From positions 1 to 21,157 of IMG/VR virus record IMGVR_UViG_3300017788_000212: a DNA stretch of 21,157 bases; one strand, written 5' to 3'. Within the stretch, counting starts at the first letter, position 1. Each line of letters begins with the position of its first letter. The position numbers and the translations under genes were made by a program. This document shows, in pieces, positions 2,203 through 14,021 of this stretch. The DNA comes from a virus. Under the pieces are notes generated by a model. It was not told the DNA's origin. It was given only the letters and a program-made list of their open reading frames with translations, and did not search any database.

Positions 2203-2814
2203 ATGGCTCTAGGTAATAGCAGTAATATTATCGTAGGTGCAGCGCAGGTATGGGTATACGACGATACGTTAACCGATGCCGCTCTACCAGCATATGTAGG
2301 TGGTACTAAGTACGCAACAACGCTGGATGCGGATGACGATTTTCGTAACATCGGCTTTACCATGAATGGTTTGGAAATTCAATTCCAGCCAGATTTTGGT
2401 GAGGTCGCAGTAGATCAAGTTCTTGACGTTGCAAAGTTATTCAAGCAAGGTATGCAGGTTAACCTAAATACCGCATTTGCTGAATCAACATTGGAAAATC
2501 TTCTTGTTGCCACAGCAGGATCTGATTCAGATCTTTCAACAGTAGCAGGAAACCCAACACTCAATCTCAAGGCAGGAACTCTTGGTGAATGTCCGATTGA
2601 GCGAGGAATTGTCGCAGTAGGTCCAGGAACTGGTGATTGTGACGAAAGTTCAAACAAGGAGCGAGTCTATGTTGCATATCGTGCACTTTCAATTGAGAGC
2701 GTAACAGTATCTGCAAAGCGTGATGAGGCTACAATGTTTGAAGTTTCATTCCGTCTGCTTCCAAACGATAACGGCTCTTATGGTAAGATCGTTGACCGTA
2801 CAGTAGCAGCATAA
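2203..2814 (+). CDS. Major tail (tube) protein
   Basis: This 203-residue protein is the expected building block of the tail tube, assembling as stacked rings around the tape measure. The start ATG at 2203 has an AGAGGTG site at 2190-2196. The sequence is beta-rich and includes the segment QFQPDFGEVAVDQVLD then VNLNTAFAESTLENL, a pattern common in phage tail tube proteins. It lies between the terminator-like gene and the chaperones, as in nearly all siphoviruses. Base and codon use differ from its neighbours: a sample line (2221-2280) is about 47% G+C by hand count, against about 30% for 3001-3060 in the next gene, as expected for a very highly expressed protein. A strong intrinsic terminator follows directly, making it an insulated unit. 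Confidence 0.85.
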   Translation: MALGNSSNIIVGAAQVWVYDDTLTDAALPAYVGGTKYATTLDADDDFRNIGFTMNGLEIQFQPDFGEVAVDQVLDVAKLFKQGMQVNLNTAFAESTLENLLVATAGSDSDLSTVAGNPTLNLKAGTLGECPIERGIVAVGPGTGDCDESSNKERVYVAYRALSIESVTVSAKRDEATMFEVSFRLLPNDNGSYGKIVDRTVAA

Positions 2815-2830
2815 TACAACTTAATAATAC

Positions 2831-2870
2831 AGAAGGCCCACGACCCTTGAAAGTCTGGGCCTTTTGTTTT
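2831..2870 (+). terminator. Intrinsic terminator after the major tail gene
   Basis: AAGGCCCA (2833-2840) pairs with TGGGCCTT (2856-2863), extendable by one G-U and one A-U pair. An inner GAC/GTC (2842-2844 with 2853-2855) leaves an 8-base loop. The right arm runs into CTTTTGTTTT. This is the strongest hairpin I see in the window and lies 17 bases after the stop codon of the tube gene. The extended -10 of the next gene begins at its last T. Confidence 0.85.
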
Positions 2871-2878
2871 GGTATAAT
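2870..2878 (+). promoter_or_regulatory. Extended -10 promoter TGGTATAAT, leaderless start
   Basis: This is a perfect TGn-TATAAT extended -10. Six bases (2879-2884) separate it from ATG at 2885, which is the usual distance from a -10 box to the transcription start. No Shine-Dalgarno site is present, so the mRNA probably starts with the A of the ATG. TTGAAA at 2847-2852 is a possible -35, but its 20-base spacer is long and it lies inside the terminator hairpin. Confidence 0.7.
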
Positions 2879-2884
2879 AAGAAT

Positions 2885-3571
2885 ATGCCTACTGAAATTT
2901 ACGACAGCACAATTGTTACTTTAGTTGATGGCTCAGAAATATACATAACTCCTTTAAAAATAAAATATCTTAGACTTTTTATGAAAGAGTTTCAAAGAGT
3001 AAGAAATGCTAAAGATGATAATGAGGCAATTGATGCATTATGTTCTTGTGCAACAATAATGATGAGACAATTTTATCCTAAAATAAAAACACAAGAAGAG
3101 TTAGAAAACGCAATAGATCTTCCCACTATATACCAAATATTAAAATATGCTGGAGGGGTTAGTGTAAATGAAAAATCCGAAGAGTCTGTAAAAGATCAGG
3201 CAACAAAAGGAGGGATCACTTGGGAAGAACTAGATTTAGCAGAATTAGAATCCGAAGTGTTTCTTCTAGGAATATGGAAGGACTATGAAGAACTAGAAAC
3301 TTCTATGTCTATGCCAGAACTAACATCTACCTTAAAAATAAAAAGAGAACTAGATTATCAAAATAAAAGATTCTTGGCTGCTATACAAGGAGTAGACTTA
3401 GATAAGGAAAGCGGTAAGCAAAATGCCTGGGAAGACATGAAGGCCAGGGTATTTAGTAAGGGTAAAGCAACTAACTCAAATGACATATTAGCCCTACAAG
3501 GAGTAAATGCACAACAGGCTGGTTTTGGCATAGGTATGGGCCTAGAATATGAAGATCTAACTGAAAAATAA
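2885..3571 (+). CDS. Long tail assembly chaperone (GT-like, single frame)
   Basis: This is a 228-residue protein. I chose ATG 2885 rather than the in-frame TTG at 2864, which lies in the terminator and -10 box. Residues 1-95 are homologous to the next gene's product: the first 46 positions align without gaps with 20 identities, including the shared TL.DG, PLKI, LR.FMK.F and DDN, followed by DLPT.YQ and a .GV. The C-terminal ~130 residues are extra, with WEELDLAELESE, then ELDYQNKRFLAAIQG and NAWEDMKARVF, ending in a glycine-rich GFGIGMGLEYEDL. This matches the layout of lambda-type GT chaperones, whose T part recruits the tape measure and tube protein. Here it is read in one frame from its own promoter, without frameshifting. 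Leucine TTA is used in 10 of 23 codons and nearly all arginines are AGA. Confidence 0.75.
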   Translation: MPTEIYDSTIVTLVDGSEIYITPLKIKYLRLFMKEFQRVRNAKDDNEAIDALCSCATIMMRQFYPKIKTQEELENAIDLPTIYQILKYAGGVSVNEKSEESVKDQATKGGITWEELDLAELESEVFLLGIWKDYEELETSMSMPELTSTLKIKRELDYQNKRFLAAIQGVDLDKESGKQNAWEDMKARVFSKGKATNSNDILALQGVNAQQAGFGIGMGLEYEDLTEK

Positions 3572-3581
3572 AACCTCGCTA

Positions 3582-3590
3582 TGGTATAAT
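3582..3590 (+). promoter_or_regulatory. Extended -10 promoter TGGTATAAT for the short chaperone
   Basis: This site is identical to the one at 2870-2878. The predicted start is near A3597, giving a leader of about 19 bases that carries a strong Shine-Dalgarno site. CTGAAA at 3561-3566 is a possible weak -35 with an 18-base spacer. The box lies 11 bases after the previous stop codon. Confidence 0.65.
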
Positions 3591-3603
3591 TTATGCATAC
3601 CTT

Positions 3604-3610
3604 AAGGAGG
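3604..3610 (+). promoter_or_regulatory. Strong ribosome binding site of the short chaperone
   Basis: AAGGAGG lies five bases before ATG 3616, a near-perfect match to the 16S rRNA 3' end and the best ribosome binding site in the window together with the one at 3951-3956. The paralogous long chaperone has none. Confidence 0.85.
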
Positions 3611-3615
3611 AATAA

Positions 3616-3939
3616 ATGGCTACAACTGTGCACGAAGAAAAAGAGATCACTCTCATTGATGGCACAAAAGTTAAAATCAGACCGCTCAAAATATCACTTC
3701 TGCGTCAATTTATGAAGAAGTTTGAGGGTTTGGCTGACGTTCAAGATGATAACGATAAGTCAATGACTTTGCTTATTGAATGCGTTCAAATTGCTATGAA
3801 GCAATATAAGCCAGAGTTGTCTGAAGACATTACTAAACTTGAAGACTTGTTGGATCTTCCAACAGTTTATCAGGTTGTTGAAGCAGCATCAGGAGTTAAT
3901 CTTTCAGATACAGCACTCTTGGCTCTTTCACAGCAATAA
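3616..3939 (+). CDS. Short tail assembly chaperone (G-like)
   Basis: This 107-residue protein corresponds to the N-terminal chaperone domain of the gene before it and stops 23 bases before the tape measure start, the position of lambda-type G. It has ITLIDGTKVKIRPLKI, LRQFMKKFE and DDN, then DLPTVYQ, all shared with the longer paralog. No room exists for a frameshifted extension: after TAA 3937-3939 only a short gap with the tape measure ribosome binding site follows. Its codons are unlike those of the long version: none of 16 leucines uses TTA, and ATA isoleucine occurs once. Together with its own promoter and a strong ribosome binding site, this suggests high expression. I infer that it is the abundant partner and the long protein the scarce one. 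Confidence 0.75.
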   Translation: MATTVHEEKEITLIDGTKVKIRPLKISLLRQFMKKFEGLADVQDDNDKSMTLLIECVQIAMKQYKPELSEDITKLEDLLDLPTVYQVVEAASGVNLSDTALLALSQQ

Positions 3940-3962: not shown

Positions 3963-6900
3963 ATGGCAGGAGATGTAAATAGCAACATTTTTATTAATGT
4001 TGACACCTCTTCGGCTATGGCACAACTTCGTGCCCTTGAAAAAGAATTAACTGCTCTTAACCGTGCTCTTGTAGTAGGAACAAAGACTGCAGCACAGGCT
4101 CAGTCAAAATATGCACAAGGACTTCTACATAATGTAAACGCCGCTGGTCAGTGGACAGCATCCATGACTAGAATGAGAACTGCAACAGAACAGTTTTCAA
4201 CAGCACTAGATAGATCTAAATTATCACTTAAAGAATATTTCCGTTATGGAATGGCATCTAGTAGAACATTTGGTAGGGTATTTGGAAATGAATATAGCAC
4301 AGTATCAAAACTAGTTGAAAAACGTGTAAAGGTATTACAGCAACAATATGTTCAGTTAGGACGAGACGCTCAGGGTGCAATGAATGCACTCAGGTTTACA
4401 CCCAAAGCGTTAAACTATAGAGATGTAACAACTCAGTTAATGATGGCGACACAGCGTCAACAAATTTTTAATAAACTTATTGACGATGGTTCAACAAAAC
4501 TTCTAAATTTTGGTAAGAATACGCAGTGGGCTGGTCGTCAGTTAATGGTTGGTTTTACAGTTCCTTTAATGCTTTTTGGAACACAGGCAATAAGAACATT
4601 TAAAGAAATTGAAACCCAAATGATAAGATTTAAAAAAGTATATGGAGATATGTATACAGATCCAGGTCAAACAGAACAAGCCTTAAAAAACATAAGAGCG
4701 TTAGCAGACGAGTATACAAAGTATGGTGTTAAGGTTGCAGATACACTTAAGATGGCTGCAGATGCAGCAGCAGCAGGTAATTTTGGAAAAGATCTAGAAC
4801 AGATTGTAGAACAAACAAATCGACTTGCAGTTCTTGGTGGAGTTACTCAAGAAAAAGCACTAGAAACTACTATAGCACTTAAAAATGCTTTTCAGATTGG
4901 AGCAAATGATTTAGATCAAACAATTAACTTCCTTAACGCAGTTGAAAACCAGACTGTTGTTGCTCTTGAAGATTTAACAGAAGCGATTCCTCGTGTTGCT
5001 CCAGTTGTAAAACAACTAGGCGGAGATGTTAAAGATCTTGCATTCTTTATGGCTGCTATGCAAGAAGGTGGTATTAGCGCAGCACAAGGTGCTAACGCAT
5101 TAAAGTCTGGTCTTGCATCTTTAATTAACCCATCAGAAAAAGCATCAAAAATGCTTGCAGGAATGGGAATTAATATTAGAGGAATTGTTGAGGCTAATCA
5201 AGGTAATCTAAGAAATATTGTTGTTGGCTTTGCTCAAGCACTACAGCCATTAACAGACTTGCAACGTACCAGGGCTATTGAAGATGTATTTGGAAAGTTT
5301 CAGTTTGCACGTATATCCGCTTTATTAAATAACGTAACTAAAGAGGGAACTCAGGCTGCAAGAGTATTACAACTTGCAAATGCATCTGTTGAAGAATTAG
5401 CAATTCTATCTGAAAGAGAATTAGGAGTTCAGGCAGACTCCGCAATGAATAAATTTGCTGGTGCTGTAGAAAGATTAAAGGCTGCACTTGCCCCAATAGG
5501 AGAAGTATTTGCTAAAACATTAACTCCAGCAATTGAATTTATTACAAGAATGTTTGAAAGATTTAATAAACTTCCAGACGGAATTAAAAAAGGTGTTGCA
5601 ATAATTACTGCCGTTGTCGGAGGACTTGGGCCAATATTCTTGATGACATTCGGCTTGCTCGCTAACGCTCTTGCTAATACAATGAAAGGATTTAACCTTC
5701 TTCGTAAAGGCTATCAGCAATTAGCGTATGGATCTTCTGATGCTGCTTTAAAAACACAATACTTAACAAATGAAGAACTAGAAAATATATCTACAACAAA
5801 CGCCCTTTATACCTCTCACGAAAGATTATCTGCAGCATATAAAATAGAATCAGCAGCATTAGGTGCATTAATTGCACAATATCAAACTGGCACAAATGCT
5901 ATGAGAGCATTCTCTGCTGCAAATCCAGGTTTATTTGTTCCTGGCAGAGTTGTTCCTCCAATTCGTCGTGCAGGTGGCGGTACAGTAAGTGGTCCAGGAA
6001 CATCTACATCAGATTCAATACCAGCCTATTTATCTGATGGAGAGTATGTGGTAAATGCTAAAGCAGTAAAACAGTATGGTGTAGATACGTTTGATGCAAT
6101 GAATGCAAGGAAGTATTCTAGCGGTGGACCAGTTATTGGTAAAGATGGAATACCTCGTTTATTTGGTGGAGGATTTTATAGAAGAATTTTGGACGCAATG
6201 CTTCCAAAAACCAGACTGGGTGTTGTTCAAGCAGGTGCAAGCGGATATGATATATCTGGTTTTGGCACAGCAGGTAGACCAAGAGTCGGTGTTGTAGCAC
6301 CAACAAGAGCAGGTTCAGAATATTATCCTGATTCGTCTTCATTAAAAAGTTGGAGAAAAATACCTTGGCAAGAAGATAAAGATGGATTTATTATTAGAGA
6401 TCCAGATACTAATGAAACTTATAAAATTAGCAAAGGAAGTAAAAAGTCATTTGATGATGCTTTTGATGATCTTGTTGCGAGAGACGGAGTACAAGCAAGA
6501 AAGCCAAGACCAGCGATGTCTGCTGGGGAATATTTAATTCACAGACTACATAAATACAAAACTGTTAAAGGAAAAGATAAGTTTGAAATAGGTGACATAA
6601 TTCAAGCAGGAGCAAGAGGTCTTGCAAAGGTCAGAACTACTGGGGCAAGTGAAGGTGGAGCATATAAAAGATGGGGTGATGCAGTCAAGGCTCGAACACC
6701 TAAAGTAAGAGCATTAATAAAAGAGTTTGATTCAGAAGAAGAATATTTAAGAAGAATGTTTCCTGAGTTACATGCCCAGTTGTCTGCTCCAGGATATAAT
6801 AGATTTGTTATATCTCCATCGCACATATCCTCTGCTGGTAAAAATAGAAGCGCTTCTGACTGGGGAAGAGAATTAATATTAAGAGATTCATCATTAATCA

Positions 6901-9900
6901 ACATGGCAATGAAAGATATGACAAAGGGAAGACGTATGCCAAAAAGCACACGACATCCACAAACTCAAGCAGAGGCACAACAAGTTATTAATGCAATACA
7001 AAACTTGGGTCCAGTAGATCAACTGGCACCAACTGTTCGTGGTGCTTTAGAAATATTAAAACGTAGGGTTAGCAATAATTTTTATGGCAGACATGATATA
7101 ACTGATGTTGGGCTAGGACTTAAAGGCGGAGGATTACTAAAACTTGCTGGCGGAACGGCATTTGTTGGTATGCCAAAATCATTTACAAAAGTGCAACAAA
7201 TAAGAGCGCTTGCAGAAAAATTAAATCAGGCAGTTAATGCAAGTAGATTTAAAAATCTTCCAATAACAGATACTGGAGTAAAACTAAAGAGTCTTGGAGG
7301 ATTTAGTGTTGGAGAAATTTCAAGAGCAGTAAATGGAGTTTATAGACATCCAGACGGCAGAACTGTAGTTTATAAGGCTGTAGAAAGTGAAGAGGCTGCG
7401 CTGGCTGAAATGAGAATGGCTGCTTTAATGAGAGAGGGTAGTGAACTTAAAACTCCAATGAATCAGTCAATAAAGGTTATTGCTGATCCAACAGATCTAA
7501 CAAGAAAAAGAAAAATTCTTGCTATAGAGTCAGACTACGACCCAAGATTTGAAAATCCAAAGGGAGAATTTACTAAGAAACAATTTATTAAGCAAACATT
7601 GGCTGCTGGTGTTCGTGGGGATAAGGATGTTAAAAGATCAAACGTTAGCGGAGATGATGTAATAGACCAGGGCAACTCTGGAGTATTTAGTACTGCATCG
7701 AGTAGATTTAAGTATGCAGATAGCATGAAGACAATAGAAGAGCAATTGTTAATAAACTTTGGCGCAATAAAAGGTGGTGCTTCAAAAGATTTTGCAAAGG
7801 CTGTTAGAAACATGGCCAAAACAATGGGTTATTCAGCATTTAAAAGCGCAATGCTTAAAGAAATTGAAGAGTCTATTCCTAGATATAGAGCAACTATTAA
7901 CTCATTTAAATTAAATCCACAAGAAAGAAAAATATATGATGATTTGATTGTTCGTTTAGAAAATTCTAAAAATGCAGACTGGAGGAAAGTTTACAATGCT
8001 GCTGCTGGAATTCCAGGATATGAGAATGGAGTATTTTCTGTACCTGGCCCAAAGGGTGCTGGCGATGTAGTCCCTGCAATGCTTTCTCCAGGAGAAGCCG
8101 TAGTTCCAGCAGATCAATCACAAAAGTATAGACCACTTATTAAATCAATTATTGCAGATAATGTCCCTGGATATGGAGATTCTAACTGGAATGATTTGGA
8201 TGATACTCCAAAAAGAGGAGGGTCCTATGATAGAAACGCAGTTGATCGTTTCCAAACACGAATGGAAGCAAAGATTGACAGAGCGGCAGACAGATTTGTT
8301 GGAACAAGAGTTGGCGGTTGGATTGATAGAAAGGTAAGACAAAAACAAGAAAGAGAAGATGCTGCAAGAAACGCAGCAAGAGCATCAGCCAGAGCAGTTC
8401 CAATGCCAGCATTTTCAGACTTAAAAGAATCTGTTGATAAAAATACTAAGGCTGCTAATGATTCTACAGATGCTTCTAAGAAAAATACACGTGGTGTTTT
8501 GCAAAGACTTGGTTTTGATAGAGGTAATTTAAGTGAGGCAGAAAGATTAGATAGAACACGAGGTGGCCGTGGATTTTTAAGAGGATTTGCTACAGTTGCT
8601 GACTTTGATAGGACTGTAACAAAAAATGGTAAAGAAAAATTTACACTAGCATCATCAGCACAAAAAACTAATGCAAGACAATTAGACAGAATGAATCGTT
8701 CTCAAAGACTTGCTATGCCATCTATGGGTGTCGCTATGGCTACATCAATGGCTGGAATGTATGCGATGAGCAACCCTGACAAACAGTTTATGGGTATGAA
8801 CTTAGGACAACTATCTGGTCCATTAATGGGAGTATCTATTCTTGCTGGATTATTACCAATGCTTAATAGTCCAATAAAAATGTTAATTGCAGGAGTAATT
8901 GGTCTTACTGCAATATTCAAGATGCAATCTGCTCAAATTAAACAATCTATTTTAGATGGTCGTGAACAAGGAAAGACTTTACTTACTACAAAAGAGTCAT
9001 TAGAGGAATTTGGCAATCTCACCAATACTGTGTCTAAAACACAAATAGCAGAAAATGTTAGGGCTTCTAGGACAACAGAAATTGTTCCAGTTAGCATGGA
9101 CTTTGGTAAAAACTTTATACTTAATAGTGATTTTGGTAAAAAGTTTCAGGCAGATCTTCAAAAAAATATAGAAACTTTTGGCAAACCTATTGCAGGACAA
9201 GTGCTTGGAAATCAACTTGCAACAGCAGTTAGTCAAAAAGTTTTAACTGAAGAGCAAGCACAGTCAATCGCAATAGCACTTACTAGAGATCTTAAAGATG
9301 CAACATTTGAAATGCAGGTTCGTGGTAAATTAATTGAACTATTAGGACCCGATGGTAAAAATGTAATAACAGATCCAATAGAGTTGCAATTAAAATTAAT
9401 ATCTAATAAAAAACAAATACAGCAAGAAACATTTAAAAATTTGCAAGAAGTCATATCAAGAGAAAGAAATGGGCTTGCTGGATTAGGCGGAAAAGAAGCA
9501 TTGGCGATGGGTCTTTCAACAATACCTGCTGCTGGTGCAGGCGCTCTTGCAACTGGAGCGATGTATCGTGGAAAGGTTGTAAATTATAACGTACGAGGTG
9601 CAGAGGAATTAGCACTTAAAGGAAAACGTGCACAACAATTTATGGCTGCTACAGAAATGGCAAGAGGATCTGGAAAGTTGAATATGGCTGCTAATGCAGT
9701 TAGAGGTTTAAGGGTAGGAACACAGGTTGCTGGTGCAGGAGCAACTGCAACTGGCGTAGGAGCAGTACCTGGTTTAACCTCTATTATTTTAGGAACTGTT
9801 ATTTTTGGAGGTATTGAAGCAGGTTTACGTGCATGGCAAAAGGGTAATGAAAAGAAAGCAATTGGAAAGGCTGCTGGAATATTCTCTGGAGTCACAACAG

Positions 9901-12900
9901 AACTACTTAAATCAACTCAACAAGGCCTTGACGCTATGAATGCACAGATAGATGATTCAATTAAGGTTCTTGAGGCTAAAAAAAGAATAGCAAAAACTTC
10001 GCAAGAGACTGCAGATTTAGAAAGACAAATTGCAGTTCTTGAGCAGAAAAGAGCGCAGGGTATAGACAAAATATATGCACAACAGGCTGAAATATTAAAT
10101 GACCTTGAAACATCTTTTAATCAGATAGGAAAGTCAACATTTTTTGAAACAATTAGTCCATTTGGAACTGGTCGTGGACAACTTCGTACCAAGTTCTTGG
10201 AGTCATTCCAAGAAGGAACTGATCTTAAATTTAAAAAAGATCCAATAAGTAAAATGTATGTTGAAAGAATGCGTAAAGATTTACAAAAGACTGAATCCAT
10301 TCAAGGATCTGGAGGGTCTTCTAGTGCTGCAGCAATGGCATACAATGAACGTCAAAAAGTAGCAAGTGATGTTATAACATTAAAGATAGAAGCACTAATT
10401 AACTCAGATGTTTTAACTGCAGAGCAGGCAGCAGAGGTAGTGTCTAATTTATCTGGTGACAGAGTATTGGCTCAAAAAGAATTAGAAACAATTATTACAG
10501 TGCATGGTCAAGAGGGTCTTCAAAGAATGGCTACTCTACAACAGTATATTCCAAAAGAAAAAAATAAGAAAAATCTTCAACTCATAATTCAGTCTTCTAA
10601 CAGAGAAGATGCTAATGAAACAATGTCTGCTTTAGAAGAATTGGTAAAACTTCCTTCCTACCTCGGATTTGATATTAACATTGAAACACAAAAAGGAGAC
10701 ATGGAAAGACTCGAGGGCGTTGGCGAAGAAATTGCAGATCTAAAGAAAATGATTCCAAGTGGTCAAATAAGTCTAAAAATATTACAAGATGTACAGCAAA
10801 AAGTTGGAGGGCCAGGTAAAAACCTTACATTAGATGCTGCAATTGCACAATGGGAAACATTATCTAAACTACCTAAAGATTTACAGTTTAATGCTATGAT
10901 TACTTTAGGATCAATATCACAGAGCGATTCATTTGATAAAATACTTGATAGAGAATTAGAAGCAGAATTTTATAAGAAAAATCGTTTTCGACGCTCGAGG
11001 GCAACCCCAGCAGTACTTGAAGCATTTAAGGCAGATCAGACAAATATAGATGCAGCAATAAAGGCTTACTTTGCAAAAGTTATGCCAGAGTTATATGGAA
11101 CTGCTGTTAAGGATACAGTAAAAACTGGAAAAGGCACGGGAGACGGAAAGGGCAAAGGCCCAGATACAAGTTGGCTATCTGAGTTATTACAAAGACTTAA
11201 ATTATTAAAAGAAGGAAGCATTGATGCAACAGGCTCTATGAAACAATTACTGGGTCAGGTTACAAAATTCTTTGGACCAGAATTAATGTCTTCGGTAAAT
11301 CCTTCGTTAGATAAAACTAAGGGAGCACTTTTACAAATTGAAAAGGCTGCTAAAGCGGCTGGAATAACTTTATCAACAGAATTTGTAGATTTTATTGAAG
11401 GGCTAGATGCTGAACAATTTGAAGAATTTAGAGATCAATTCTTATCAATGAGTAAAGGAAAAATAGTTGGATTTAAAGGAACAAGCAGTCAGTTCTTTGG
11501 ATCTGATGCAGCATATGATCGCAGACAAAGAGCAATACAGGCAGGGACATTTGACGGATCTCAGCAAAGTCTATTCGGTCAAGTAAACGAGGCTTTTAGA
11601 ACAAAAACAATAGCAGAATTTATTAAAAAACAACAAGACTCTATTAAAGAGAGTAACCTTCAGGTTGAAGCATTTAGAAAATTAACCGACGCAACTGGAG
11701 AATTTAAATTTGATGCCATGGCAGCAATGGAAGTATTAAAAGATCCAGCCCTGGCTAAGGAAATAGCCCTTGGAAAAAAGATTTTTAGTCCAGAAGAAAG
11801 AGAAGCAATAATTACTTCTATCAATAAAACATATGCAGCAGCATCTGCTTTATCTAAAATTAAAATGATCCAAGATACCGAAGGATTGCAAAATCAAGTA
11901 AAGGCTTTTAATAAGTTATCAGCAGCAGGATATGATTATGCCACTATACTTAAGGTAATAGAAAATGAGGCATATGCCTACGAGATTGCTAATGATAAGG
12001 TTAACGGATTATCTAAAGAAACAAAGGAATTAGTTAAAGAAACAGAAAATTATATTAATGCATTAACAACTCTAGAGAATACAAAATTTTTCCAAGAAAG
12101 AACTAACGCTCTTAAACTTAAACAAGATTTTGCTGCAATTGCTCCGTTACTAGTACAGGCAGGAGCAAGTTTATCAGACATACAAGAAATATTAAGCAAC
12201 CCTACTTTAGCAAAGGCATTTATACAAGAACTTAAAGATGGATCACTAGATGCTGGAAGAATTAAAGAATATTTAGATCAAATTCCAGATTTTAAACAAG
12301 TTGACGTAGAACTTAGAATTTCTACAAGAGAGGGTCAGGAAGAGGAGTTTGATAAGTTATTTAGTAAGGCCATGGAATATTATGACTTGCTAGAAGATAA
12401 AATTGAAGATGATTTTGAGCCATTGCTTAAAAATGCTCAAGATGCAATTGATGCCACACAGGAAAAAATTGAAGGTATTAATGATGAAATTCAAAAATAT
12501 CAAGATGAGATTGATGTAAAGCAAAGAAAGATTGAAATAGAAATAACAAGACCTATTGAGATTTTACAAAAAGATTCTGCTGAATTAGCCAACGATCTTG
12601 AGTTAATGAATGTAAGTGCAGATGAGATAACCAAGAAATATGATGAACAGGCAGCAGCACTTACAAAGGTTTTTGAAATAAACTCAAGAATTGCTGATCA
12701 ACAAAAACAACAATTAAATCTTGCAGATGCTCTATCTCAAGGAGATATTTCCGCAGCAGCAGCAGCAGCACAAGAAATGAGAGCGTCTCAATCAGCAGCA
12801 ATGCAAGAGGATCAACTTGGTATTTTAAACACTGCAAAAGAAACTCAAATTGCAGGTTTAAGAAGCAAGGGTGGATTAACTAGATTACAAATTGAAAAAC

Positions 12901-14021
12901 TTCAATTTAATATAAGTCAAAAGATCTATGAACTTGAAAAGAAACGTGATCTTGAATTAATAGAAGTAAGAAAACTAGAAGACGCTATCTACGATATTAA
13001 GACTGGTAGATTAAAACTTGCTCAAAATGAACTTGATTTAAATAATAAAAATCTTAAATCAATACAAGATCAAAAAAACGCTGCGATTGAAGCAATAGAT
13101 AAACAAAGAGAAATTTGGACAGACGCAAAGTTGGCAATTGGTTTTGCAAGAATAGAGGCTGGATACTATAACGATGTTATTGAATTTTCTAATACACTTG
13201 TTAATTTAATGAAAGACGGATGGCTCGGAGTTGGAAATGCTATTCTAGCAGCCGTTTCTGCTCTTGCTCTTTATAATGCAGGACTAAAGAAGCCAGTTAC
13301 TTTTGAGCAGGCACAGGCACAGGCTCAAAAGACTTTAGGTGGTTACTTAAATACTTTTGGTTCTAAACTTGGAAGTGCAGATCAGCAAATAGTTGATCTA
13401 GAACTTAAGATTGCAGAGGCAATGGAGAGGGGCGAAGATACCTCCGCATTAGAAGCACAGTTGGCAGCCCTAAGAGAATCTACTGAATTACTAGCAGATA
13501 ATATGTATGATGTAGCAAAAACGCTTGATAAGGTTGATAACGCAACAAACATCGCTGCAATTAATAGTGCAGTTTCTACTGCCACCAGCATCCTAAAAGA
13601 TCCTTTTGGAGATATTGATGTTGAGTGGGACGGACCAGTTTGGATTCCTGAAGAAGGTTCTGGCGGAGCAGGAGCAGACTTTGTTCAGGTAGCATCTAAG
13701 GGTGGAATCATAAAGCCAAGTTACTTGAAAAAAGGCGGTATGGCAAAATATTTCTTAGGTGGCGGTTTTGCTAAAGGAACAGATACAGTTCCAGCAATGC
13801 TGACTCCTGGAGAGTTCGTAATGAGCAGATATGCTGTAAATGCTCACGGAGTAGATACAATGAAAGCAATTAATGGCGGAGCATCAATTGGAGACTCAGT
13901 GTATAATTATAGTATTAGTGTTAATGTTAAATCTGATGCAAATCCAGATGAGATTGCTAGAGTAGTAATGACACAGATTAAGCAGGTAGATTCTAAGAGA
14001 TTGAGGGGAGCAAACCTATAA
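3963..14021 (+). CDS. Tape measure protein, very large (3352 aa)
   Basis: It fixes tail length and is ejected with the DNA. The start ATG 3963 follows AGGAGG (3951-3956). Residues 1-190 are helical. A region from about 193 to 570 has the tape-measure core (KEIETQMIRFKKVYGD, then ALADEYTKYGV, then a region rich in alanine and GGISAAQGANALKSGL). Hydrophobic stretches lie near 193-210, 544-572, 1588-1655, 1846-1868 and 1918-1958. Three copies of a GxDxVPAxLxPGExVV-type motif centre on residues 684, 1368 and 3274. A kinase-like region lies at about 1105-1330. Three degenerate repeats of ~77 residues start near 2567. A long coiled coil spans about 2796-3066. The C-terminus ends with VNVKSDANPDEIARVVM, common to such proteins. 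At about 0.15 nm per residue the full length would give about 500 nm, less if globular inserts do not count. I see no muralytic motif. Confidence 0.92.
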   Translation: MAGDVNSNIFINVDTSSAMAQLRALEKELTALNRALVVGTKTAAQAQSKYAQGLLHNVNAAGQWTASMTRMRTATEQFSTALDRSKLSLKEYFRYGMASSRTFGRVFGNEYSTVSKLVEKRVKVLQQQYVQLGRDAQGAMNALRFTPKALNYRDVTTQLMMATQRQQIFNKLIDDGSTKLLNFGKNTQWAGRQLMVGFTVPLMLFGTQAIRTFKEIETQMIRFKKVYGDMYTDPGQTEQALKNIRALADEYTKYGVKVADTLKMAADAAAAGNFGKDLEQIVEQTNRLAVLGGVTQEKALETTIALKNAFQIGANDLDQTINFLNAVENQTVVALEDLTEAIPRVAPVVKQLGGDVKDLAFFMAAMQEGGISAAQGANALKSGLASLINPSEKASKMLAGMGINIRGIVEANQGNLRNIVVGFAQALQPLTDLQRTRAIEDVFGKFQFARISALLNNVTKEGTQAARVLQLANASVEELAILSERELGVQADSAMNKFAGAVERLKAALAPIGEVFAKTLTPAIEFITRMFERFNKLPDGIKKGVAIITAVVGGLGPIFLMTFGLLANALANTMKGFNLLRKGYQQLAYGSSDAALKTQYLTNEELENISTTNALYTSHERLSAAYKIESAALGALIAQYQTGTNAMRAFSAANPGLFVPGRVVPPIRRAGGGTVSGPGTSTSDSIPAYLSDGEYVVNAKAVKQYGVDTFDAMNARKYSSGGPVIGKDGIPRLFGGGFYRRILDAMLPKTRLGVVQAGASGYDISGFGTAGRPRVGVVAPTRAGSEYYPDSSSLKSWRKIPWQEDKDGFIIRDPDTNETYKISKGSKKSFDDAFDDLVARDGVQARKPRPAMSAGEYLIHRLHKYKTVKGKDKFEIGDIIQAGARGLAKVRTTGASEGGAYKRWGDAVKARTPKVRALIKEFDSEEEYLRRMFPELHAQLSAPGYNRFVISPSHISSAGKNRSASDWGRELILRDSSLINMAMKDMTKGRRMPKSTRHPQTQAEAQQVINAIQNLGPVDQLAPTVRGALEILKRRVSNNFYGRHDITDVGLGLKGGGLLKLAGGTAFVGMPKSFTKVQQIRALAEKLNQAVNASRFKNLPITDTGVKLKSLGGFSVGEISRAVNGVYRHPDGRTVVYKAVESEEAALAEMRMAALMREGSELKTPMNQSIKVIADPTDLTRKRKILAIESDYDPRFENPKGEFTKKQFIKQTLAAGVRGDKDVKRSNVSGDDVIDQGNSGVFSTASSRFKYADSMKTIEEQLLINFGAIKGGASKDFAKAVRNMAKTMGYSAFKSAMLKEIEESIPRYRATINSFKLNPQERKIYDDLIVRLENSKNADWRKVYNAAAGIPGYENGVFSVPGPKGAGDVVPAMLSPGEAVVPADQSQKYRPLIKSIIADNVPGYGDSNWNDLDDTPKRGGSYDRNAVDRFQTRMEAKIDRAADRFVGTRVGGWIDRKVRQKQEREDAARNAARASARAVPMPAFSDLKESVDKNTKAANDSTDASKKNTRGVLQRLGFDRGNLSEAERLDRTRGGRGFLRGFATVADFDRTVTKNGKEKFTLASSAQKTNARQLDRMNRSQRLAMPSMGVAMATSMAGMYAMSNPDKQFMGMNLGQLSGPLMGVSILAGLLPMLNSPIKMLIAGVIGLTAIFKMQSAQIKQSILDGREQGKTLLTTKESLEEFGNLTNTVSKTQIAENVRASRTTEIVPVSMDFGKNFILNSDFGKKFQADLQKNIETFGKPIAGQVLGNQLATAVSQKVLTEEQAQSIAIALTRDLKDATFEMQVRGKLIELLGPDGKNVITDPIELQLKLISNKKQIQQETFKNLQEVISRERNGLAGLGGKEALAMGLSTIPAAGAGALATGAMYRGKVVNYNVRGAEELALKGKRAQQFMAATEMARGSGKLNMAANAVRGLRVGTQVAGAGATATGVGAVPGLTSIILGTVIFGGIEAGLRAWQKGNEKKAIGKAAGIFSGVTTELLKSTQQGLDAMNAQIDDSIKVLEAKKRIAKTSQETADLERQIAVLEQKRAQGIDKIYAQQAEILNDLETSFNQIGKSTFFETISPFGTGRGQLRTKFLESFQEGTDLKFKKDPISKMYVERMRKDLQKTESIQGSGGSSSAAAMAYNERQKVASDVITLKIEALINSDVLTAEQAAEVVSNLSGDRVLAQKELETIITVHGQEGLQRMATLQQYIPKEKNKKNLQLIIQSSNREDANETMSALEELVKLPSYLGFDINIETQKGDMERLEGVGEEIADLKKMIPSGQISLKILQDVQQKVGGPGKNLTLDAAIAQWETLSKLPKDLQFNAMITLGSISQSDSFDKILDRELEAEFYKKNRFRRSRATPAVLEAFKADQTNIDAAIKAYFAKVMPELYGTAVKDTVKTGKGTGDGKGKGPDTSWLSELLQRLKLLKEGSIDATGSMKQLLGQVTKFFGPELMSSVNPSLDKTKGALLQIEKAAKAAGITLSTEFVDFIEGLDAEQFEEFRDQFLSMSKGKIVGFKGTSSQFFGSDAAYDRRQRAIQAGTFDGSQQSLFGQVNEAFRTKTIAEFIKKQQDSIKESNLQVEAFRKLTDATGEFKFDAMAAMEVLKDPALAKEIALGKKIFSPEEREAIITSINKTYAAASALSKIKMIQDTEGLQNQVKAFNKLSAAGYDYATILKVIENEAYAYEIANDKVNGLSKETKELVKETENYINALTTLENTKFFQERTNALKLKQDFAAIAPLLVQAGASLSDIQEILSNPTLAKAFIQELKDGSLDAGRIKEYLDQIPDFKQVDVELRISTREGQEEEFDKLFSKAMEYYDLLEDKIEDDFEPLLKNAQDAIDATQEKIEGINDEIQKYQDEIDVKQRKIEIEITRPIEILQKDSAELANDLELMNVSADEITKKYDEQAAALTKVFEINSRIADQQKQQLNLADALSQGDISAAAAAAQEMRASQSAAMQEDQLGILNTAKETQIAGLRSKGGLTRLQIEKLQFNISQKIYELEKKRDLELIEVRKLEDAIYDIKTGRLKLAQNELDLNNKNLKSIQDQKNAAIEAIDKQREIWTDAKLAIGFARIEAGYYNDVIEFSNTLVNLMKDGWLGVGNAILAAVSALALYNAGLKKPVTFEQAQAQAQKTLGGYLNTFGSKLGSADQQIVDLELKIAEAMERGEDTSALEAQLAALRESTELLADNMYDVAKTLDKVDNATNIAAINSAVSTATSILKDPFGDIDVEWDGPVWIPEEGSGGAGADFVQVASKGGIIKPSYLKKGGMAKYFLGGGFAKGTDTVPAMLTPGEFVMSRYAVNAHGVDTMKAINGGASIGDSVYNYSISVNVKSDANPDEIARVVMTQIKQVDSKRLRGANL
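5973..6107 (+). repeat. Tape measure motif, copy 1 (residues 671-715)
   Basis: GGGTVSGPG is followed by D684-SIPAYLSDGEYVVNA and then YGVDTFDAMNA. It aligns with copies at residues 1356-1399 and 3266-3306 through D-x-[IV]-PA-x-L-[ST]-x-GE-[YAF]-V. This Gly-rich motif recurs in many tape measure proteins. Copies 1 and 2 bracket the kinase-like region. Confidence 0.8.
7275..7952 (+). other. Kinase-like region inside the tape measure (residues ~1105-1330)
   Basis: Five elements appear in the order and spacing of PI3/4-kinase- or HipA-like kinase folds. They are a Gly-rich NGVY turn followed by HPDGRTVVYKAV (ATP-binding lysine candidate K1138), a helix EEAALAEMRMAALMRE (candidate glutamate E1149), and a hinge-like strand RKILAIESDYDP. 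Next comes GDKDVKRSN, where D1222 and N1227 have the D-to-N spacing of GDTDRHxxN, and then VIDQGNSGVF with D1235 where the metal-binding ID.G..F is found. Helices follow to about 1335. The histidine of DRH is replaced by lysine, so activity is uncertain. This is motif reading by eye, not a domain hit. Confidence 0.45.
8028..8159 (+). repeat. Tape measure motif, copy 2 (residues 1356-1399)
   Basis: GVFSVPGPKGAG is followed by D1368-VVPAMLSPGEAVVPAD and a helix. It matches copies 1 and 3 and closes the segment that carries the kinase-like region. Confidence 0.75.
8724..8930 (+). other. Tape measure membrane segments (residues ~1588-1655)
   Basis: Three closely spaced hydrophobic stretches occur: MGVAMATSMAGMYAM, LMGVSILAGLLPML and MLIAGVIGLTAIF, broken by short polar loops. 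They are the most strongly hydrophobic part of the protein. Tape measure proteins of this kind are thought to insert such segments into the host membrane at DNA entry. Confidence 0.6.
11661..12240 (+). repeat. Degenerate ~77-residue helical repeats in the tape measure
   Basis: Three successive units start near residues 2567, 2645 and 2721: QVEAFRKL..., QVKAFNKLSAAG... and LKQDFAAIAPLL.... Each ends in a helix of the type EVLKDPALAKEIALG, KVIENEAYAYEIA or EILSNPTLAKAFI. The pattern is hydrophobic-helical and divergent, so the boundaries are approximate. Confidence 0.45.
12349..13160 (+). other. Long coiled coil of the tape measure (residues ~2796-3066)
   Basis: Highly charged heptad-like sequence rich in E, K, Q, L and I runs through INDEIQKYQDEIDVKQRKIEI and KIYELEKKRDLELIEVRKLED, with an alanine-rich hinge encoded by a (GCA)6 run at 12753-12770. 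It is the longest uninterrupted rod-like segment in the protein. Confidence 0.65.
13758..13880 (+). repeat. Tape measure motif, copy 3 (residues 3266-3306)
   Basis: GGGFAKGT is followed by D3274-TVPAMLTPGEFVMSR and then NAHGVDTMKAINGG. It shares both halves with copy 1, including the GVDT-x-x-A-x-N ending, and sits just before the C-terminal domain. Confidence 0.8.

Follow-up and report, generated by a model that had tools for sequence, protein, structure and literature searches.

Few recoding events in tailed phages are as conserved as the frameshift used in the expression of tail assembly chaperones (TACs). The window analyzed in this work, a 21,157-base virus fragment with tail genes, raises the question of whether a gene duplication may stand in place of that event, as proposed in an earlier sequence-only reading of this DNA, which described two separate paralogous TAC genes instead of a frameshifted G/GT pair. 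The features of the locus are listed in Table 1.

Table 1. Features of the predicted TAC locus and its flanking genes in the window
Feature	Position	Strand	Details
Major tail protein gene (context)	2203..2814	+	48% identity to the annotated protein of Streptomyces phage Angela
Predicted intrinsic terminator, major tail protein/long TAC	2833..2869	+	AAGGCCCA/TGGGCCTT stem, T-rich tail
Putative promoter P1, extended −10 TGGTATAAT	2870..2878	+	Hexamer ends 6 nt 5′ of ATG 2885
Long TAC gene	2885..3571	+	GT-type fusion, 228 aa, without Shine-Dalgarno
N-terminal (G-like) domain of the long protein	2885..3184	+	Paralogy to the short protein, E=8e-25; phrog_10504
C-terminal (T-like) domain of the long protein	3185..3568	+	Same frame as the N-domain; phrog_10474
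Putative promoter P2, extended −10 TATGGTATAAT, for the short gene	3580..3590	+	
CCTTAAGG dyad overlapping the Shine-Dalgarno	3600..3607	+	CCT..AGG in 53/84 distinct leaders vs 12% in control
Shine-Dalgarno AAGGAGG of the short gene	3604..3610	+	
Short TAC gene	3616..3939	+	G-type, 107 aa
Tape measure protein gene (context)	3963..14021	+	30% identity over 539 aa to the annotated protein of Angela

As that reading had it, both genes are complete open reading frames (ORFs), each contained in one frame. The two occupy different frames of the window. The claimed relatedness of their N-terminal parts was borne out by BLASTP, which revealed 37 identities over 100 aa (37%), a paralogy that by sequence is far beyond chance, and 20 of the first 46 ungapped residues are identical, exactly as counted originally. 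A profile search, suggested at the time as a check and made here against PHROGs, showed that both N-parts match phrog_10504 (E=3e-20 and 2e-22) and that only the long protein has a match to phrog_10474, at its C-terminal end. Frameshift extension of the short gene, named in advance as one of two observations that would speak against the proposal, was excluded in the window, where no extension frame is open (past the gene's own stop, the next one follows after 3 codons in the −1 frame and after 14 in the +1 frame), and is absent in nearly all relatives.

The nature of the long gene became apparent from comparison with phage records. The long protein matched 132 records in tblastn searches, 127 of them corresponding to Streptomyces phages, and in 119 records at least 80% of the protein was covered at one place. 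In those places the match splits over two adjacent ORFs, with the T ORF located in the −1 frame relative to G, and many of the records annotate these ORFs as TACs. In the window, the G and T domains form one continuous frame, fused where the relatives have a slippery site, and the T-like domain shares about 40% of its residues with the −1 frame ORF found in the Streptomyces phages. By these alignments, the long protein unites in one frame the two ORFs annotated as the TAC pair in Streptomyces phages of the Stanwilliamsviridae. The pair of that family (for example Angela 54/55, Coruscant, BillNye) is homologous in both G and T, shares the site between the major tail protein and the tape measure, and has a G leader similar to that described here, with a terminator followed by a promoter-like site and a Shine-Dalgarno sequence; it differs in having one G copy, T in the −1 frame after CCCAAAT or CCCGGAA, and no separate long gene. 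It has to be mentioned that the TAC ORF annotated as gene 38 in Streptomyces phage Faust (NC_070783) spans 60 bases (L164, 3591–3650); the T frame of this phage is open from 3294 to 3650, and the annotation looks truncated.

A survey of related phages, also proposed along with the original claim, was carried out through four viral-contig scans plus selected phage records, and resulted in 285 loci, with several overlaps or repeats among them. The duplication was found to recur: 195 loci contain the fused long gene followed by the short gene, 88 contain G followed by T in the −1 frame, and 2 contain the fused gene only, both of these being cut at a locus end. Mixed architectures were found in none of the 285 loci, the arrangement being all-or-none, and the long-first order pointed out for the window holds for every complete duplicated locus. 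A T ORF in the −1 frame together with a slippery heptamer was present in 70 out of 70 distinct G/T loci, the heptamers being mostly CCCAAAY, CCCGGAA or GGGAAAN, with one AAACCCA; none of those three motifs was found at the fusion junction in 143 distinct duplicated loci. Furthermore, each of six contigs of 100–123 kb encodes exactly two copies of the G-domain and one T-domain. All six encode a WhiB protein and are therefore likely actinophages. No host or prophage copy was found in a scan of genome contigs.

Other heptamers of the slippery form X XXY YYZ, mostly A-runs, do occur near the junction in 26 of the 143 distinct long genes, and one lies near the end of 10 short genes. Frameshifting might thus persist alongside the duplication, with ribosomes slipping and stopping at A-rich runs of some long genes to give extra short form. 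We regard this as very improbable, since the heptamers are not conserved and are missing at the junction of the window, AT-rich genes should contain such runs in any case, and all complete loci already have a short gene dedicated to that form.

The relationship between the two copies was then analyzed in domain trees. In the N-domain tree, the long-gene N-domains form one clade (support 100/99) and the short genes another (92/75), indicating that the copies separated a single time, without later homogenisation; on this phylogenetic evidence, the locus derives from one ancient duplication with fusion. Four frameshifting relatives (L184, L232, L182, and L284) group with the short genes in this tree, three of them carrying GGGAAAC, and the long N-domains fall outside. 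In the T-domain tree, the long genes stand beside these same four relatives; two changes between fused and unfused forms are needed in this tree, and a single origin is allowed. Forcing both copies into one clade was not rejected (AU p=0.3), and more than one branching order of the duplication is therefore compatible with the placement of the long N-domains.

The outside position of the long N-domains, along with their divergence from the short genes (37% identity here), would also be compatible with the long gene being a foreign TAC acquired from another phage, the resident locus having lost its T part. This origin appears unlikely, given the neighborhood of the long genes in the T-domain tree, the fact that the separation of the copies can be a long-stem effect, as judged from the AU value, and a long-gene codon use equal to the phage's own default. 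The substitution of a duplication for frameshifting is instead supported by the correspondence of the long gene to the relatives' G plus T, by the loss of the slippery site, and by the N-domain tree. Frameshifting is likely the ancestral state, since it is found in Streptomyces, Rhodococcus and environmental relatives. The short protein is more conserved than the long N-domain, the median pairwise identities being 67% and 53%, respectively, and 67% for T. The leader of the short gene seems to be the one inherited from the ancestor, because the single G gene of the frameshifting relatives often has the same elements (an extended −10 in 36/66, a Shine-Dalgarno sequence in 63/66, and often a terminator-like stem).

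To describe the signals that may govern both genes, counts were made on the 135 distinct duplicated loci with enough flanking sequence. A strong fold consistent with a terminator precedes the long gene in all 135 (mean dG −23.6 vs −9.4 in shuffled sequences; for region 2822–2872 of the window, dG −23.5 and z −5.6). It is followed by TG plus a match of at least 5/6 to the −10 hexamer in 131 loci, as compared to 2.8% in shuffles. The −10 stands 6 nt from the ATG in 93 of the 135 loci, as in the window, where this spacing fits the earlier description of the long gene as leaderless, and transcripts from P1 are predicted to be so; some long genes may have a short leader, since the −10 is located at 8–15 nt in about 27% of them. 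A Shine-Dalgarno sequence of at least 5 nt was detected in only 5/135 long genes vs 130/135 short genes, and the AAGGAGG reported ahead of the short gene of the window is real. In addition, a perfect TGnTATAAT precedes the short gene in 129/135 loci, mostly 24–28 nt from the ATG. P1 and P2 are thus candidate promoters whose activity we infer from these conserved motifs.

The CCT..AGG dyad in the short-gene leader, which might serve as an operator or act within the RNA, occurs in the forms CCTTAAGG, CCTTATAAGG and CCTATATAGG, and is also present in the G leaders of several frameshifting relatives. A hairpin masking the short-gene Shine-Dalgarno in read-through transcripts can be drawn in the window, but was rejected, since over 108 spacers it did not differ from upstream-shuffled controls (p=0.35). 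The window and each of the large contigs contain the TATAAT-leader-GGAGG layout at only 2 to 5 places, and it recurs about 4.5 kb upstream in 5 of the 6 large contigs. In the two contigs examined, L285 (728–756) and L286 (1221–1248), TATAAT, a short leader and GGAGG precede a gene for 161–166 aa located directly 3′ of the presumed major capsid gene, a layout that suggests a second internal strong promoter.

Codon use also distinguishes the two genes. GC3 was higher in the short than in the long gene in 125/143 loci (p=2e-20), and the share of ATA among Ile codons was 53% in long genes, 25% in tape measure, 9% in short genes, and 5% in major tail protein genes; the short genes, unlike the long ones, follow the codon preferences of the major tail protein gene. 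The contrast drawn in the sequence-only reading was therefore correct as regards the favored codons of the short gene, but the AT-rich use of the long gene is not special to it, being the phage default, from which the short gene and the major tail protein depart, and its AT-richness was discarded as a sign of foreign origin on the same ground. The contrast fits, as far as codons can tell, a short protein made in bulk and a long one made sparingly. Along with the conservation of the signals, it makes it plausible that the short:long ratio is set through transcription and translation.

Regarding function, the locus was compared with the lambda G/GT system, in which the short form exceeds the long one approximately 30:1, G binds to the tape measure and T to the tail tube protein (PMC5009743). 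Both loci lie between the major tail protein and the tape measure genes, and both encode a short form and a long form that share the N-domain, the latter with a C-terminal T extension; lambda gpG/gpGT acts on the tape measure, as would the pair described here. The lambda long form is made by −1 frameshifting, whereas here it is encoded in one frame, the slippery site is absent and the short gene has no extension. The proteins are homologous to annotated TACs, those of the Stanwilliamsviridae. The predicted fold of the short protein matched a viral "Tail assembly chaperone" (E=5e-7, TM 0.77; models of moderate confidence); PDB sequence and fold searches gave no match, and weak matches to phrog_1932 were found in 11/21 relatives. 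Position, two-form design, homologue annotation and fold match together suggest that the pair has chaperone activity, and by analogy with lambda the G part would bind the tape measure and T the tail tube. PHROGs lists phrog_10504 and phrog_10474 as families of unknown function; here they correspond to G-like (2885–3184 and 3616–3939) and T-like (3185–3568) TAC domains, respectively.

The short gene might also be the sole working chaperone, with the long protein having another role in the tail, for instance as a minor component. The faster evolution of the long N-domain would agree with such a role, as would a conserved C-terminal stretch of the fused T part that is lacking in Streptomyces T. 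We consider it quite unlikely, because conservation of the T-domain equals that of the short protein and no complete locus lacks this domain, a pattern that a requirement for the G-T form would produce.

Altogether, the homology of the copies, the fusion, the loss of the slippery site, the single duplication and the conserved signals, all read from sequence, lead us to propose, with a probability of about 0.86, that the TAC pair arose by one duplication of a frameshifting G/GT locus, followed by fusion, slippery-site loss and control of the ratio by other means. According to this proposal, the ancestral locus would have duplicated once, one copy becoming a permanent in-frame G-T fusion (the long gene) and the other remaining G alone (the short gene), with loss of the slippery site in both. 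A strong extended −10 promoter, together with favored codons and a strong Shine-Dalgarno, would give the short protein its excess, and this protein would coat the tape measure protein. The long protein would be scarcer, since its gene lies past a terminator, uses ordinary codons and would be transcribed without a leader; its N-domain would enter the coat and its T-domain would recruit the major tail protein. No terminator was seen between the long and short genes, so P1 transcripts probably run into the short gene, and P2 can therefore only add short protein. The excess of short over long would in this way be built into the layout.

Separate TAC genes have a precedent in T4-like phages. The two T4 proteins, gp26 and gp51, show similarity to one another (E=2e-6) and are also separate paralogous short and long forms, but their homology to the present TAC family was not detectable (hhalign probability below 1%). 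Moreover, genes 26 and 51 of this myovirus lie on opposite strands, whereas the genes studied here follow one another in tandem, beginning with the long one, and a separate promoter signal precedes each. For T4-like phages, PMC10885494 describes, from Vladimirov et al. (2022), short and fused long TACs encoded by separate genes with no frameshift, and to that extent the separate-gene principle is already known. For Microbacterium cluster EA phages, the relevant part of PMC7302621 describes two TAC ORFs with no evident frameshift; these look separately expressed, and their paralogy or fusion is not given in that part. As far as the papers searched show, what is new here is the independent actinophage origin, the tandem arrangement with the long gene in front, and the conserved layout with two promoters.

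From these comparisons, a large group of freshwater actinobacterial viruses appears to make both TAC forms from two sister genes, while its closest relatives frameshift. We think it probable that a whole aquatic actinophage lineage permanently swapped a frameshift-set G:GT ratio for a duplicated dual-promoter locus (long gene leaderless, short gene with a strong Shine-Dalgarno), the copies of which then specialised, the short one remaining close to the ancestor and the N-domain of the long one diverging. The analysis also suggests a function for phrog_10504 and phrog_10474. If true, the swap would be an independent and traceable escape from a highly conserved recoding event, visible from both sides. 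With homologous proteins and synteny in a family that exists with and without the frameshift, it becomes possible to test directly what a fixed ratio is worth, and such a natural swap would allow the purpose of the ribosome slip to be tested.
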